Below the pieces are notes generated by a model. The model did not search any database. It saw only the letters and a list, made by a program, of their open reading frames with translations, and was not told where the DNA came from. Of a stretch of 64,000 nt of DNA, positions 4,422 to 57,739 are shown one piece after another (the first letter of the stretch is position 1; every line of letters starts with the position of its first letter). The stretch is from Ruminococcus callidus. GTDB lineage: Bacteria > Bacillota > Clostridia > Oscillospirales > Ruminococcaceae. A program made the translations under genes and the position numbers. The stretch lies in NCBI RefSeq assembly GCF_020709055.1, contig NZ_JAJFCK010000011.1, positions 23,550-87,549 on the forward strand. Direction: 5' to 3'.

Positions 4422-5150
4422 TTGGTATATATTACAGGAGATATGCACGGCGATCTGTCACGGTTTAAGGATCCTGTGTTCAAAAAAATGAAAGCGGGCG
4501 ATGTGCTCATCGTCTGCGGCGATTTTGGATTTATCTGGGACGGCTCCCGTCAGGAGCAAATGGCACTGCGGAAGCTGCGGGAGAAGCCATTTACCATTGC
4601 TTTCGTGGACGGCTGTCACGAGAATTTCGACATTCTGGAACATCGTTTCCGCACTGTTCGGTGGCGTGGCGGTATGGCGCATCTCATTGCACCGAATATT
4701 TTCCACATGATGCGTGGGGAGATCTTCACCATTGATGACCGCACATTTTTTGCATTTGGCGGCGGGCACAGTCAGGATTTCGAATTCCGGCAGGGCACCC
4801 GCAACTGGTGGCAGCGGGAACAGCCCACGCACAGCGAGATTCGTCGTGCCATCCACAATCTAAATTTGCACGATGCAAAGGTGGATTACATTATCACACA
4901 CGAGCCGCCTGCTTCTCTGAAGGACTGTTTGGGTGTGGACATGCAGCAGCGTCTGGAAATTCACACGTTTTTCGAGGATATTATCAAGCAGTGCGAATAC
5001 CGCAAGTGGTTCTTTGGCAAATGCCACATGGATCGGTTCATTCCCATGAAGTTCTACGCAATGTTTGAAGATGTACTTCCGGTGGAACCCGAGGACTGGA
5101 AAACGCCTGTGAAAAAACCGGCAAAGAAAAAAAAGAAGAAAGCTGAATAA
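4422..5150 (+). CDS. Calcineurin-like metallophosphoesterase
   Basis: A 242-residue soluble phosphoesterase. The metal-binding motifs appear in order: GDMHGD near residues 6-11, GDFGF near 33-37, GCHEN near 64-68 and THEPP near 160, as in calcineurin-like enzymes acting on phosphomonoesters or diesters. The final segment is lysine-rich (about eight Lys in the last fifteen residues), which could bind nucleic acid or membrane; this is speculation. The start codon is TTG at 4422, with AAGGAGG about 8 bases upstream and no alternative ATG until inside the first metal motif. It stands alone, with a terminator directly behind it. The substrate is not deducible. Confidence 0.85.
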   Translation: MVYITGDMHGDLSRFKDPVFKKMKAGDVLIVCGDFGFIWDGSRQEQMALRKLREKPFTIAFVDGCHENFDILEHRFRTVRWRGGMAHLIAPNIFHMMRGEIFTIDDRTFFAFGGGHSQDFEFRQGTRNWWQREQPTHSEIRRAIHNLNLHDAKVDYIITHEPPASLKDCLGVDMQQRLEIHTFFEDIIKQCEYRKWFFGKCHMDRFIPMKFYAMFEDVLPVEPEDWKTPVKKPAKKKKKKAE

Positions 5151-5153
5151 CCG

Positions 5154-5195
5154 AAAAAGGCCGGCCGTTCCAGAACAGGAACAGCCGACCTTTTA
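5154..5195. terminator. Bidirectional terminator
   Basis: A 17-bp stem with only G-U exceptions joins AAAAGGCCGGCCGTTCC to GGAACAGCCGACCTTTT, flanked by A- and T-runs. It serves the metallophosphoesterase gene and, on the other strand, the convergent EF-G-like gene. Confidence 0.85.
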
Positions 5196-5231
5196 TATTT
5201 TGGAGAGAAACTGAGCGTATTTCAATGCAGA

Positions 5232-7286
5232 TTATTCCGATGCAGCGGCAATGACTTCGGTCATGAGGTTGGCAGGGAGCTGCTCATAGCGGACGGGGGT
5301 AAGGGTAAATACCCCCTCGCCCTGTGTCATCTGGCGCAGCTGCATTGCAAAGTCTGCCATTTCACGCAGCGGAACTTCTGCCAGAATGGTAGTCATGCCG
5401 TCTTCGTCAGACGGATTCATACCAAGAACTCTGCCCCGGCGCTTGTTCAGGTCGCCCATGATGTCGCCGGTGTTGTCGTCGGGGATGGATACCTCCAGAC
5501 TGCCGATGGGTTCCAGCAGTGTCGGTTCTGCCTGCTTCATGCCCTCTTTGTAGGCAATGGAAGCTGCTGTCTTGAACGCCATTTCGGAGGAATCTACCGG
5601 ATGATAGGAACCGTCCACTAGAATTGCCTTGACGCCGACCACAGGGAATCCCGCCAGAACGCCCTTGGCCACAGACTCCTGCAATCCCTTTTCCACTGCC
5701 GGGAAGAAGTTTTTCGGAACGGCACCGCCGAACACCTTTTCTTCAAAGACCAGTTCGTCAGAGGGATACGGTTCAAATTCGATCCAAACGTCGCCGTACT
5801 GTCCGTGACCGCCGGACTGCTTCTTGTGTCTGCCCTGTACTTTGACTTTCTTTCGGATGGTTTCCCGATAGGCGATTTTGGGCACGGAGAGGACAACCTC
5901 CACACCGAAGTCGTTTTTCAGCTGGGAAACCACTGCTGCCAGATGCTGTTCACCCAGTCCGGACAGTATCATCTCTTTGGTCAGCGGATTCTGTTCATAA
6001 GAGAGGGTCTGATCTTCCTCCAGAAGCTTCTGAATTGCTCCGGCAACCTTTGCCTCATCCCCTCTTGCTGCCGGACGCACTGCCATGGAATAGCAGGACT
6101 TCGGGAAGCTTGCACGTGGCAGATTTACCACACGGCTATTGGCACAGAGTGTGTCGCCAGTGCTTGCAGAGAGTTTGGTGGTTGCAACAAGGTCGCCTGC
6201 CTCGGCACAGTCGGTTTCCTGCTGCTTCTTTCCGCAGAGGAAGAAGAGCTTACCGATTTTTTCAACGGAGCCGGTGGCAGCATTCACCAGTTCCGCTCCG
6301 GCTTTCAGTGTTCCGGAAACCACACGCAGCATGGACAGTTTTCCCACAAACGGGTCGGAGAGTGTCTGGTAAACCTGTGCGCAGACGGGTTCTCCGGCAG
6401 CGGGATGCAGAACGGTCAGTTCGCCGGATGCGGTTTCTGCCGGAATCTCGTCGGTCTCTCCGACGGTCGGAACCAGAAGTTCCAGCTCTTTGCAGAGCAG
6501 GTCAATGCCCTCCATATTCTGTGCGGAAACGCAGGCAACCGGTGTGATGGTGCCGTCTTTCATGCCCTTGTGGATACCGTCCACTCGCTCTTTCTGGGAG
6601 AACTCCTCGCCGGAGAAGAATTTTTCAAAGAGTTCCTCGTCAGTTTCCGCAACTGCCTCGGAGAATGCCTGAATCAAACCGTCTACCCGATAGCTTAGCT
6701 TCTCGGAGAGCTCTGCAGTGGGCATAGGGATTTCCTCTGCCTTTCCGTTCTGGTTATAGCGGTACGCTTTCATCTCAATAAGGTTGATGTAGGAGTCCAC
6801 CTTGCGGTCAACAATGACGGGAACGACCACAGGGCACACCGTCGGGCCAAACGTAGACTTCAAATCAGTCAGCACATTATAGAAATTGGCGTTCTCGTCG
6901 TCCAGCTTGGTGACAACAAACATCCGGGGTTTTCCTTCTGCCGCCCGATACGCCTTCTTTGTCCCTACACGAACGCCGGATTTTCCGGAAACTGTAATCA
7001 GAACACAATCCGCAGCAGAAATGCCCTGCACCATACTGCCTGCAAAATCGAACATGCCGGGGGTATCCAGCAGATTGATCTTCTGTCCGTTTTGCAGGAT
7101 GTGGCCTGTGGCTGTGTAAACGGAAGAGTGGCGTTTCATTTCCTCTGCGGTATAGTCGGAAACAGTGTTCCCTGCTGCAACGCTTCCCATGCGTTCGATT
7201 TGTCCTCCTTGATAGAGCAGCGCCTCCATCAGCGTGGTTTTTCCAGTTCCGGCATGACCGGCAAGTGCAATATTCTTTGTGATCAT
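5232..7286 (-). CDS. Elongation factor G-like GTPase (FusA2-type paralogue)
   Basis: A 684-residue translational GTPase with the full EF-G domain order. The G domain has the P-loop GHAGTGKT at residues 10-17, DTPGMFDFAG as G3 and TKLDDENA as G4. Domains II-III follow, then domain IV (HKKQSGGHGQYGDVWIEFEP) and domain V ending in EVIAAASE. Instead of the canonical EF-G switch I RGITI, it has KRHSSVYTAT, typical of the second, EF-G-like paralogue found in many bacteria rather than the housekeeping fusA of the rpsL-rpsG-fusA-tuf cluster. A role in recycling, stress translation or ribosome protection is possible but unproven. ATG at 7286 has AGGAGC 9 bases upstream; the upstream in-frame extension overlaps the promoter region. 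Confidence 0.88.
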   Translation of the reverse strand: MITKNIALAGHAGTGKTTLMEALLYQGGQIERMGSVAAGNTVSDYTAEEMKRHSSVYTATGHILQNGQKINLLDTPGMFDFAGSMVQGISAADCVLITVSGKSGVRVGTKKAYRAAEGKPRMFVVTKLDDENANFYNVLTDLKSTFGPTVCPVVVPVIVDRKVDSYINLIEMKAYRYNQNGKAEEIPMPTAELSEKLSYRVDGLIQAFSEAVAETDEELFEKFFSGEEFSQKERVDGIHKGMKDGTITPVACVSAQNMEGIDLLCKELELLVPTVGETDEIPAETASGELTVLHPAAGEPVCAQVYQTLSDPFVGKLSMLRVVSGTLKAGAELVNAATGSVEKIGKLFFLCGKKQQETDCAEAGDLVATTKLSASTGDTLCANSRVVNLPRASFPKSCYSMAVRPAARGDEAKVAGAIQKLLEEDQTLSYEQNPLTKEMILSGLGEQHLAAVVSQLKNDFGVEVVLSVPKIAYRETIRKKVKVQGRHKKQSGGHGQYGDVWIEFEPYPSDELVFEEKVFGGAVPKNFFPAVEKGLQESVAKGVLAGFPVVGVKAILVDGSYHPVDSSEMAFKTAASIAYKEGMKQAEPTLLEPIGSLEVSIPDDNTGDIMGDLNKRRGRVLGMNPSDEDGMTTILAEVPLREMADFAMQLRQMTQGEGVFTLTPVRYEQLPANLMTEVIAAASE

Positions 7287-42320: not shown

Positions 42321-44581
42321 TCACCTGTTTTTTCCAGCAGATGGCAGCAACAGACCGATTTGCTCGGCTGGAACGATGCGGCAAAGAGCTGCATCGACTG
42401 TTTCCGTCAGGGCAAGCATGCATGGAACTTTTGGGGAAACTGTGCGTTTCTGATCCGTCAGGTAAAAGCAAACCGGAACTTTCCCTGGAAATTTCGCAGA
42501 GAGTGCAGCAATTTTTTGGAAAGCATCCCGTGCTGTTGACGGCAGCTTGAAGCACAGCCGGCTCTGCGGAAACAGCTGCCGAATCTCCTCAGTTGTCAGA
42601 ATGCTCTCGCAGCGAACGCTGACCCGCTCTTCTTTTTGGGTGATTTTGCCTCGTATCCAAAGGGTCGCCTGTCTTTTCAGCTTGGGACGCACATCCGGAT
42701 ACAGATTCGGAAAAACCACGCAATCTGCTGTGCCAGTGCGATCTTCGCAGGTGAGAAAGCACATGCTTCCGCCCTGTCGGGTGGTGTGCTTTCGGACGTT
42801 TTGCAGCGTTACCAGCAGGAATACGGACGCATTGTCCGGCAGTTCCGGTAGTGCAGCAGCCTGCTGGACATGGAGCAGCCGTCCCAGCCAGTCCAATTGC
42901 TGAAGCGGATGACTGGAAAAATAGAAGCCCATGCTGTCGTGTTCCAGCTGCATCAGTTCCTCAGCAGAATATTCTGCCACATACGGAATTTGTATCAAAT
43001 CCGCAGCAGTGCTATCATCTGCGCCGCCAAACAGATTCATCTGTCCGGTCATCACTCGATTTTGTGCGTCCCGGCAGAATGCCATCACCTGTTCTGCACT
43101 CTGCCGCATTTGCTGCCGATTCAGACCAAGTTCATCCAGCGCACCGCAGCAGATCAGGCTGTCCAGCGCCTGTCTGTTCAGACCGAGCGGAAGCGTGCGG
43201 CGGCAAAAGTCCTGCAGCCCTGTGAATGCGCCTGCTTTGGAGCGTTCCTGTACCATGGCTTCCAGAAAACCACGTCCCAGATTGCGGACAGCCAGCATAC
43301 CGAATTGAATCTGATGATTCTGCGGCAGGAAATCCACACCGCTTCGGTTGACGTGCGGCGGAAGTACCTCCACGCCGGCACTCTGGCAGGCGGACAGATA
43401 TTCCATCACTTTTTCCGTCTCTCCCATGACACTGGTGAGCAGTGCAGCCATGTATTCCGCAAAGTAATGGCATTTCAGATATGCCGTTTGGTACGCCAGT
43501 GTTGCATAGGCGACGGCGTGCGATTTGTTAAATGCATAGGATGCAAAAGCGGAGATCTCATCGAAAATGGCGTTGGCAGTTTCAGCCGGAACGCCGTTTG
43601 CCACAGCACCGCAGCAGGGAGATGTGCCGTCCTTGCCATCGCAGCCATAGATGAATACCTGACGTTCCCGCTCCATCTCCTCTTTCATCTTTTTGGACAT
43701 GGCGTGGCGCACAGTGTCTGCTCTGCCATAGGAGTACCCTGACAGAACTCGGCAGATTTCCATGACCTGTTCCTGATAGATCATACAGCCATAAGTCGGC
43801 CGCAAAATCGGTTCCAGCAGCGGGTGCGCATAGGTGATTTTTTCCGGTTCCTGACGGTTCGCCAAATACCGGTCAATGGAAGAGCGTGGTCCGGGGCGAT
43901 AGAGCGACAGTGCAATGGTCAAGTCCACCAAATTTTGCGGACGGAGCCGTTTGAGGATGCTGCGCATTCCTGCGCTTTCGAACTGGAATACCCCAGTCGT
44001 GTCCCCTTTTGACATCATAGCATAGACAGCGCTGTCGTGCAGGGAAATCTTGTCCAGTGAAAATGCCGGCTGCTGCTTTTGGATGGAAAGCACACAGTCG
44101 TGGATGATGGAGAGATTTCGCAGCCCCAGAAAATCAAACTTGAGCAGTCCCAGTTTTTCCAGGACTTTCATGGGATACTGCGTGATGACGATGTTGTCAT
44201 TTTTTTGCAGCGGTACCAGCTCCACGATGGGAAACGCAGAGATCAGCACACCAGCAGCGTGGGTGGAAGCATGCCGCGGCATACCCTCCAGCTGCATTGC
44301 CATATCCAGCAGCTGATGCGCAGACGAATCCGTTTCATAGAGTTTGCGCAGCTCTGCACCATCTTCTTTTTCCGCCATTGCCTCGGCAATGGTGTTTCGT
44401 GGGTCAATGTGCTTGGTAATCTGATCGCACAGGGCATAGGGAACGCCCAGCGCACGTCCGGTGTCCTTTACCGCAGCACGTGCTTTGAGAAAGTCGAACG
44501 TGATGATCTCAGAGACACGATCGGCACCGTATTTGGAAACCACATATTCCTTTACTTTTTGGCGGCCTTCTACGCCAAAAT
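42321..44581 (-). CDS. dnaE: DNA polymerase III alpha subunit, exon 2
   Basis: The 3' exon of dnaE: two bases completing Asp405 followed by 753 codons including the stop. It begins (D)FGVEGRQKVKEYVVSKYGADRVSEIITFDFLKARAAVKDTGRALG, the palm region just after the catalytic PDFDID. Fingers and tau-binding parts follow (TGVFQFESAGMRSILKRLRP, LYRPGP, PTYGCMIYQEQVMEICRVLSGYSYGRADTVRHAMSKKM, FNKSHAVAYATLAYQTAYLKCHYFAEYMAALLTS). The end has the OB domain (VFLLVTLQNVRKHTTRQGGSMCFLTCEDRTGT). In unspliced DNA this frame is preceded by about 30 codons of intron sequence that have no relation to DnaE. Spliced product: 1157 residues, a normal DnaE1 length. Confidence 0.93.
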
Positions 44582-45234
44582 ATCGTGATAGGTAAGAGTT
44601 TGGAGCAAGGATTCCCCTGCCTCTCCGTCTTTTCCCCCACGCCACACCGTGCGTGCGGCTTTCACCGCACACGGCGTTCCATCGGAATGCACCATCCCGA
44701 CTGGTGGCTGTTGCTCCGCTCCCATTACAGGAGTTTCCACGCTCGTGCCACCGCTTTCACGGCAGATGAAGGAGGCTTATTTTCTTCGTCCCCCAAACAG
44801 ATATCCGCTCTGCCGCTTCCGACGTTCCGCTGTCCCTATCTTCTCTTATTCACACGTAGACCCCCGCTATTACCATGCAGTTCCTCCGCCGCCTGTAACG
44901 GCGCAGGGCATTTCATAACATCGTGTTTACTCCGCCCCAAAATGCATGGCATTTCATTCGCAGGTTCGTCAGTGCTTAATGCACATTCTGATCCTATGTG
45001 ATTTCAGCACCTCGAAAGGCGCAAAGACCTCCGAAGTATCATCCGCCGACTTAGGCGAACTTCCTCCGACTCCAGCGGGCTTCACACCGCCAACCGGCAG
45101 CATGCCGCAGTTTCAGGTGGCCATTTCCGGACGTTACTCCATCATTCTGACCATCGGGACAGCAGTTCTCCGTTTTCAGACTGCTATGTATTCTGAAAAC
45201 GTGTCCTGCCTTTTCAACAGAAAACGTCTCGCAC
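44582..45234 (-). mobile_element. Group II intron without maturase gene, inserted in dnaE
   Basis: A 653-base intron. The minus strand starts GTGCGAGACG at 45234 and ends ...CACGAT at 44582, i.e. GTGYG...AY ends. Domain V lies at about 44643-44679: GCCGTG-TGCGGTGAAAGCCGCA-CG-CACGG, with GAAA tetraloop and two-base bulge. Domain VI follows (about 44590-44640). A candidate EBS1, CGATGTTA (44916-44923), pairs over 8 bp (two G-U) with TGACATTG, the last 8 bases of exon 1. Removing exactly these bases rejoins Asp-Ile-Asp-Phe in frame. No reverse transcriptase/maturase frame is inside, so splicing in the cell must be self-sufficient or helped in trans. Confidence 0.9.
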
Positions 45235-46447
45235 CAATGTCAAAATCCGGCATGCTTCCACGCTCCGGATTGAGAAAGCGCTCAAAAAGTAAGTGATACG
45301 GAAGCGGGTCGATTTGCGTAATGCCCATACAATAGGCACAGATGCTCCCCGCTCCGGAACCTCTTCCCGGCCCCACGGGGATGCCCTGCTTCCGTGCATA
45401 CGTGATGTAATCCCAGACGATCAGGAAATAATCCACGTAGCCCATCTCCTGAATCACTGCGATTTCCTTTTTCATGCGTGCCACGGCTTCTTGCGGCGGC
45501 GGGTTACCGTACCGCTGCCGCAAACCGCTGCGGCACAATTGCAGGAAAAGATTCTGGCAATCCTCCACGCCGTCCATGCGGAACTTTGGCAGGTGCAAAG
45601 TACCGTCCAGCTGAAATGCAACGTGGCACCTTGCAGCGATTTGAGAGGTATTGGTGATTGCTTCCGGAACAGAGGCAAACAGCGCCTGCATTTCCGCAGT
45701 GGATTTCAGATAAAATTCATCGTTGGCAAATTCCATTCGATTTGGGTCATGAATGGTTTTTCCGGTTTGGATGCAGAGCAGCACCTGCTGCATCTGCGCA
45801 TCCTTTTTCCGCAGATAATGAGCATCGTTGGTTGCTGCAAGCGGGATTCCGGTTTCCCTGGAAATGCGGATCAGCTGCGGCAAATTCTGGCGTTCCTCCG
45901 GCAGCCCGTGATCCTGAAGTTCCAGAAAGAAGTTCCCTGCGCCAAACAACGCCTGATAGCGCAGTGCCGTTGCTTTTGCCTCGTCATAACGGCCGGCAGA
46001 GAGCAGCCGTGGAATTTCTCCGGCAAGGCAGGCGGACAGACAGATCAGCCCCTCGTGGTACTGGCTTAGCAGTTCCCAGTCCACCCGTGGCTTGCGGTAG
46101 AAGCCCTCAATGCTGGCGAGAGAGACCAGCCGGACGAGGTTCTGATAGCCGGTATTGTTCTCGCAGAGCAAGATCAAGTGGTAGCTTTTCGCATCCAGCG
46201 AATGTTCCCGATCGTGTCGTGTTCGCTGCGCCACGTATACCTCACATCCCAGAATGGGGCGAATGCCAGCCGCCGTCGCTGCCTCATAAAACGGAATTAC
46301 GCCATACATCACGCCGTGGTCGGTCAGTGCGACTGCGGTTTGCCCCAACGCTTTGACCTGCTGTACCAGTTCCGTGATACGGCAGGCGCCGTCCAGCAAA
46401 CTATATTCGCTGTGCACATGCAAATGGACGAAAGCATCATTTTTCAT
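45235..46447 (-). CDS. dnaE: DNA polymerase III alpha subunit, exon 1
   Basis: The 5' exon: 404 codons plus the first G of codon 405. The N-terminal PHP domain starts with [19 protein letters not shown] and [11 protein letters not shown]. The polymerase part has [60 protein letters not shown]. It ends inside the catalytic motif, between Ile404 and Asp405 (the E. coli D401/D403 pair corresponds to D403/D405 here). Without splicing, translation would continue into the intron for 19 codons and stop, giving an inactive fragment. The start overlaps whiA by 11 bases. Confidence 0.93.
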
Positions 46448-57480: not shown

Positions 57481-57554
<74 letters not shown>

Positions 57555-57558
57555 AGAA

Positions 57559-57635
57559 GCGCCTTTAACTCAGCTGGATAGAGTAACTGCCTTCTAAGCA
57601 GTAAGCCACTGGTTCGAATCCAGTAAGGCGCGCCA
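57559..57635 (+). tRNA. tRNA-Arg(TCT)
   Basis: Acceptor GCGCCTT/AAGGCGC is perfect, the anticodon loop CTTCTAA gives TCT, the T-loop is GTTCGAATC, and CCA is encoded. It follows tRNA-Gly by 4 bases. Confidence 0.95.
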
Positions 57636-57661
57636 AATCGTCCCGCTGAGGACGCATATAT

Positions 57662-57739
57662 GGTGGGTGTAGCTTAGCTGGTTAAAGCGTCGGATTGTGG
57701 TCCCGAAGATCGTGGGTTCGAATCCCATCTCCCACCCCA
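57662..57739 (+). tRNA. tRNA-His(GTG)
   Basis: The anticodon loop TTGTGGT gives GTG. The G at 57662 is the histidine-specific G-1, facing C73, and CCA is encoded. The acceptor GTGGGTG/CTCCCAC has a T-T mismatch at pair 6-67. Confidence 0.92.

Follow-up and report, generated by a model that had tools for sequence, protein, structure and literature searches.

dnaE of Ruminococcus callidus is probably interrupted by an ORF-less group II intron beside its catalytic codons

Group II introns that lack an open reading frame (ORF) and depend on a protein supplied in trans reportedly reside in the RIR genes of Trichodesmium and in its dnaN, a replication gene. Splicing of bacterial ORF-less introns in trans by an intron protein has been reported (J Biol Chem 2005, 280:35085, as cited in PMC4424553). 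In the relevant passages of the citing review, bacterial group II introns are placed mostly outside housekeeping genes, and ORF-less ones are called rare and nearly always accompanied in the same genome by relatives bearing an intron-encoded protein (IEP) (PMC4424553). A survey based mostly on organelle genes found, according to its pertinent sections, that group II introns have no preference for conserved sites (PMC2814812). Here we describe a 653-nt ORF-less group II intron in dnaE within a 64,000-nt stretch of Ruminococcus callidus (contig NZ_JAJFCK010000011.1, positions 23,550 to 87,549), hereafter the window. The kind of element is known; what is unusual is where it sits, that it recurs, and that it has no ORF.

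The closest described systems resemble this locus only in part. As far as the cited passages describe them, the introns served in trans are comparable to the window intron and to two dnaE introns of a related draft genome (G182): all are ORF-less, several similar introns occur per genome, and a helper protein is likely to be needed. They differ in lying in other genes and another phylum, whereas here the polymerase subunit itself is interrupted beside catalytic codons, and in that no full-length helper was found in the G182 draft. C.te.I1 of Clostridium tetani, as depicted in portions of two articles (PMC4424553, PMC3919590), is likewise ORF-less, and its genome has no IEP-related gene, a state that the G182 draft comes near; unlike it, the window intron lies in dnaE and has one apparent pair of splice sites. 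Two IEP-encoding relatives (G372:C37, G032:C76) share matches to the same two Rfam families, and the second is also in dnaE, but both encode a reverse transcriptase. DnaE inteins, including split inteins, are similarly parasitic elements whose removal is needed for DnaE function, to judge from the parts of three articles that treat them (PMC4853749, PMC12702839, PMC3403396); inteins are removed at the protein level, in contrast to group II introns, which are removed from RNA. A literature search, covering titles, abstract openings, some passages, and few subscription journals, returned no report of a group II intron in dnaE.

The window dnaE lies on the minus strand (46447-42321) as two open pieces parted by an insert with exact bounds (45234-44582, minus strand; 653 bases), which begins GTGCG and ends AT. 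Exon 1 (45235..46447, minus strand) encodes residues 1-404 and base 1 of codon 405; exon 2 (42321..44581, minus strand) supplies bases 2-3 of that codon, residues 406-1157, and the stop. Fusing the flanks by script yields one DnaE of 1157 codons with no internal stop and one final stop, and the sequence at the join reads SMPDFDIDFGVEGRQ. The exons score 533.6 and 657.3 bits, respectively, against TIGR00594 (cut-off 434.35 bits). The NCBIfam profile NF005298 covers positions 3-401 in exon 1 and 403-1148 in exon 2, with position 402 alone falling between.

Covariance models identify the insert as a group II intron. RF02004 (group-II-D1D4-5, D1-D4 family) matches 45020..45170 (minus strand; 96.1 bits, E 1.6e-19, model 1-201 of 201) and RF00029 (Intron_gpII, domains V and VI) matches 44582..44679 (minus strand; 58.4 bits, E 6.8e-9, model 1-77 of 77), against Rfam gathering thresholds of 34.5 and 40 bits. 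Both matches are on the dnaE strand, and that of RF00029 stops at 44582, exactly the 3' end of the insert. The ends GTGCG...AT fit the group II pattern of 5' GUGYG and 3' AY, the minimum free energy of the insert has a z-score of -3.25 against 20 shuffles, and an unpaired alignment position marks the A at 44589 as the likely branch point. Together with a homologue at the same site in G182, these results agree with the initial annotation of this DNA, which had been made from the sequence alone and had claimed a group II insert of this length, with these ends and this placement, whose removal restores dnaE in frame. No reverse transcriptase was matched in the 64-kb window by tblastn with the IEP of G372 at E up to 1; the same query does recover two IEP-encoding loci elsewhere (L053, L056).

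Other classes of element were rejected. An intein is incompatible with a length of 653, which is not divisible by three, and with an exon-1 frame that reaches a stop inside the insert, 19 codons past the junction. A group I intron was discarded since RF02004 and RF00029 were the sole intron matches in the window at the gathering thresholds. Among phage and plasmid records, none covers 80% of the window intron, coverage being 9-16% among the matches listed, with 335 plasmid records outside that listing, and viral contigs gave 0 matches to the junction at this site (site 1).

The initial annotation had set the junction inside the catalytic codon itself, equating it with D403 of Escherichia coli DnaE. 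This assignment needs correction by two positions. Window residues 3-404 align to residues 3-404 of the E. coli DnaE chain in 2hnh and window residue 407 to chain residue 407; the registers on both sides therefore make the split codon E. coli residue 405. The relevant part of one article (PMC8485763) names D401, D403, and D555 as the active-site residues, and this, with the 2hnh alignment, rules out D405 as a catalytic residue. D401 (45247-45245, minus strand) and D403 (45241-45239, minus strand) are whole in exon 1, beside the break, and window residue D554, the equivalent of E. coli D555, is whole in exon 2 (44135-44133, minus strand).

When the intron DNA was compared with 247 genomes of the family, 30 matched, and most of the matches listed were a short stretch of domain V. 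The best match was G182, which has a 736-base ORF-less intron at the identical base of dnaE. A second ORF-less intron of 737 bases interrupts the same gene (L023 8094-8830, G182:C1:13093-13829, minus strand) between the first and second bases of the VYQEQ Glu codon (site 3). The dnaE of G182 is thus in three pieces, which join to encode 1141 amino acids (aa). A DnaE family search of G182 returned that dnaE alone and one PolC-like gene, a label that we assigned from a 1453-aa frame and weak TIGR00594 matches. RF00029 is found at three places in G182, two of which are the dnaE introns; the third scores below the cut-off. This last one (L054 4500-4570, minus strand; G182:C1:33499-33569) is a weak intergenic match to domains V-VI (34.6 bits) and may be a remnant or a chance hit.

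The three dnaE introns each pair with their own exon. In the window, exon 1 ends in the hexamer ACATTG (45235..45240, minus strand), the intron-binding site 1 (IBS1), which pairs at 6/6 positions (five Watson-Crick, one G-U) with the exon-binding site 1 (EBS1) CGATGT at intron positions 312-317 (44918..44923, minus strand). EBS1 lies directly before the motif TATGAAA, and in both G182 introns a hexamer immediately 5' of TATGAAA likewise pairs at 6/6 (IBS1/EBS1: ATATTG/CAATAT in intron 1, ATCAGG/CCTGAT in intron 2). Hexamers that fully pair with the exon end are few (3/648 in the window intron, 5/731 and 1/732 in those of G182), and chance is therefore an unlikely reason for all three introns to match fully at the same fixed landmark. 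The exon end in the window differs from that at G182 intron 1 by a single base, a synonymous change in the D403 codon (GAC versus GAT), and EBS1 has changed to match; EBS1 also differs where the window has its G-U pair. Exchanging partners between either site-1 intron and G182 intron 2 leaves only 2-3/6 pairs. Folded alone, the piece of the window intron holding EBS1 is no better than shuffles (z 0.47). A fold of the three-sequence alignment, which is partly poor for G182 intron 2, retains domains V and VI; of its 169 predicted pairs, 65 are changed on both sides in one or more of the sequences.

Interruptions of dnaE recur beyond these two genomes. G032 has a 2796-base intron (L070, G032:C76:52000-62000, 58417-55622, minus strand) that matches RF02004 and RF00029 and is inserted immediately 3' of the third catalytic Asp codon (site 2). 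Its junctions read GAC|GTGCGACTTG on the 5' side and CCTAT|TTTCTGGGC on the 3' side, and the joined flanks encode a DnaE of 1162 aa. The intron encodes a 621-aa reverse transcriptase with an RVT_1 match and an HNH match below the cut-off; it is 35% identical to the IEP of G372. At the G032 exon end, ATGGAC, a complementary hexamer (GTCCAT) was found by scanning and falls in a predicted hairpin loop. The G372 intron, which also matches both Rfam families, is outside dnaE; judged by eye, the gene that it interrupts resembles a mobile-element helicase. In G372:C37 (L053) and G001:C45 (L056), IEP-encoding relatives stand amid genes that appear by eye to be helicases and polymerases of mobile elements or phages, and these loci are possible mobile reservoirs.

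Three protein searches, each limited to the best 120 matches of 0.55-1.75 times the query length, gave 198 distinct proteins, in which fragments are over-represented and fractions are not frequencies. At site 1, four of the 198 pass from MPDFDI into GARRF (P0008, P0014, P0017, P0123), P0017 being identical to the G182 reading frame. At site 2, LK[M/F]DVR[I/L/V]VR is present in 48 (49 by a looser motif). At site 3, one protein (P0065, source name Alistipes) runs into VYQGATRS at the VYQ|E motif, as at G182 intron 2, and it alone carries VYQGAT. The introns of P0008, P0014, P0123, P0065, and the site-2 carriers other than G032 are deduced from read-through tails of 5-59 residues, mostly 28, and site 2 is seen as DNA in G032 only. 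The site-2 DNA pattern occurs in 1/396 family genomes and 0/394 genomes of the order, which is an undercount since the pattern requires GTGYGAC and misses the large protein group with VRIVR. Genus-level searches with the intron DNA matched 4/11 genomes (G182 included) and 2/16; the other matches were partial, and the one among them that was placed, G372, is not in dnaE.

On these grounds, we consider it very probable that an ORF-less group II intron occupies this chromosomal dnaE, is spliced out to rebuild codon 405, and belongs to a related set that invades the gene. The intron would be transcribed in the sense direction with dnaE and then fold; EBS1 would pair with the exon-1 end, and two transesterifications would remove the intron and restore the codon. 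Related introns would invade dnaE at highly conserved codons, namely codon 405 after D401/D403, the position after D555, and the Glu codon of VYQEQ, following its first base. Since group II introns recognise exon bases by pairing, such invariant codons would offer a common landing site across species. Splicing in the cell would presumably be performed by a maturase acting in trans, or by the intron itself with host factors. That interruptions recur at codon 405, immediately past the codon for D555, and at VYQ|E lends some weight to the comparison with inteins drawn in the initial annotation. A broader proposal, that group II introns of Oscillospiraceae behave like inteins by repeatedly homing into DnaE active-site codons, some of them protein-less, and make replication depend on splicing by the ribozyme, with some hosts having no dedicated maturase, is put forward tentatively, at somewhat less than even chances.

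Several observations weigh against this interpretation. Domain V reads CGC, judged by eye, where the consensus is AGC. With their partners exchanged, the two site-1 introns still pair at 6/6 and 5/6, so the compensatory change between them amounts to one base pair only. As a control, EBS1 in the IEP-bearing relatives is mixed, with 6/6 in L007 and 3/6 or 5/6 in L053 depending on whether the first or second start is taken, and the TATGAAA landmark is missing from L008 and, in G032, from the intron's first 700 bases. For the EBS2-IBS2 contact, the window has a candidate (CAGAAT, position 245) with no consistent counterpart in G182. The site-1 junction pattern is rare, occurring in 4/396 family genomes, where one is genuine and three are chance matches outside dnaE, and in 0/394 order genomes. 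As for a helper, the sole TIGR04416 match in the G182 draft (267.3 bits, cut-off 300) is a truncated group II-type reverse-transcriptase ORF of 278 aa (L055 around 5107-6402, G182:C72), which adjoins a match to RF02005 (D1D4-6). The Pfam maturase domain GIIM (PF08388) was found in 0/2 genomes, an uninformative result since the same test misses the long IEP frame in G001.

A spliced intron at site 1 could also descend from one old inherited insertion followed by many losses, with no repeated homing. This alternative, which we regard as unlikely though far from negligible, overlaps with the preferred explanation on the nature and working of the insert. It is consistent with the observation that, at site 1, no intron-encoded protein was seen for the window or for G182. 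In a quick tree of exon-1 DnaE (148/154 rows, six without the region being dropped; SH-aLRT support only), the five site-1 carriers require five changes, at least four of them forced by the starred branches; all 500 of 500 label shuffles were as low, hence the carrier label is not clustered. The site-2 tree, in which 130 rows, 50 of them carriers (counting G032), were collapsed at 97% to 55, 11 of them carriers, requires nine changes, at least seven forced, with a single origin in 0% of 200 bootstrap trees and 97/500 shuffles as low. Carriers and non-carriers therefore interleave, which speaks against a single insertion, and P0008 (with the intron) is 92.2% identical to P0010 (without it) over exon 1. 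Near-identical DnaEs likewise differ at site 2 (P0049/P0046, P0091/P0103, P0132/P0129), where one intron has a reverse transcriptase. The scatter fits repeated gain, loss, or both, and common ancestry with losses would yield it too, so it cannot by itself separate the two. The existence of an IEP at site 2 favours gain by homing there; the site-1 pattern may instead stem from recurrent losses of an older intron.

Loss of splicing, which would leave dnaE broken or as two separately translated fragments with another polymerase compensating, is highly improbable. G182 does contain the PolC-like gene, and in the window a 783-aa ORF with a GTG start opens within the intron and spans exon 2. However, exon 2 is intact over 752 codons without a stop or frameshift. 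Its differences from the uninterrupted dnaE (MPDFDVDF) of an uncultured Ruminococcus metagenome-assembled genome (L001; 71.5% identity over exon 1) are, by codon position 1/2/3, 0.276/0.169/0.571, against 0.241/0.144/0.529 for exon 1; exon 2 is therefore under constraint much like exon 1. The same break is also retained in five DnaE lineages of 57.7-80.9% mutual identity over exon 1, the cut separates D403 from D554, which are parts of one active site, and EBS1 fits the exon in all three introns. An assembly or chimera artefact, conceivable for a single window, can practically be dismissed given the identical junction in G182, P0008, P0014, and P0123.

Under the preferred reading, growth would depend on splicing of the intron. 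In Bacillus subtilis, the polymerase activity of DnaE is essential alongside PolC, according to the sections concerned of one study (PMC5627055), and Clostridia usually have PolC with DnaE1, a set called experimentally uncharacterised in the corresponding part of another (PMC3919608). Given these reports and the constraint on both exons, cells unable to splice the intron would probably not survive, which makes plausible the suggestion in the initial annotation that replication would require splicing. Introns found repeatedly at the active-site codons of a polymerase that is probably essential, at least two of these introns lacking a protein of their own, run contrary to the relevant passages of the review (PMC4424553) and the survey (PMC2814812). 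They would be natural bacterial models of how a mobile ribozyme makes itself indispensable within a core gene; a transition of this sort has been proposed in the origin of spliceosomal introns. In addition, dnaE introns may account for some database dnaE entries marked as truncated.

The genes adjoining the window dnaE encode WhiA, RapZ, and PfkA, and the gene order around the uninterrupted dnaE of L001 is alike, as judged by eye. The window dnaE is therefore an ordinary chromosomal locus. Elsewhere in the window, a cluster of three tRNA genes lies on the plus strand at 57481-57736.
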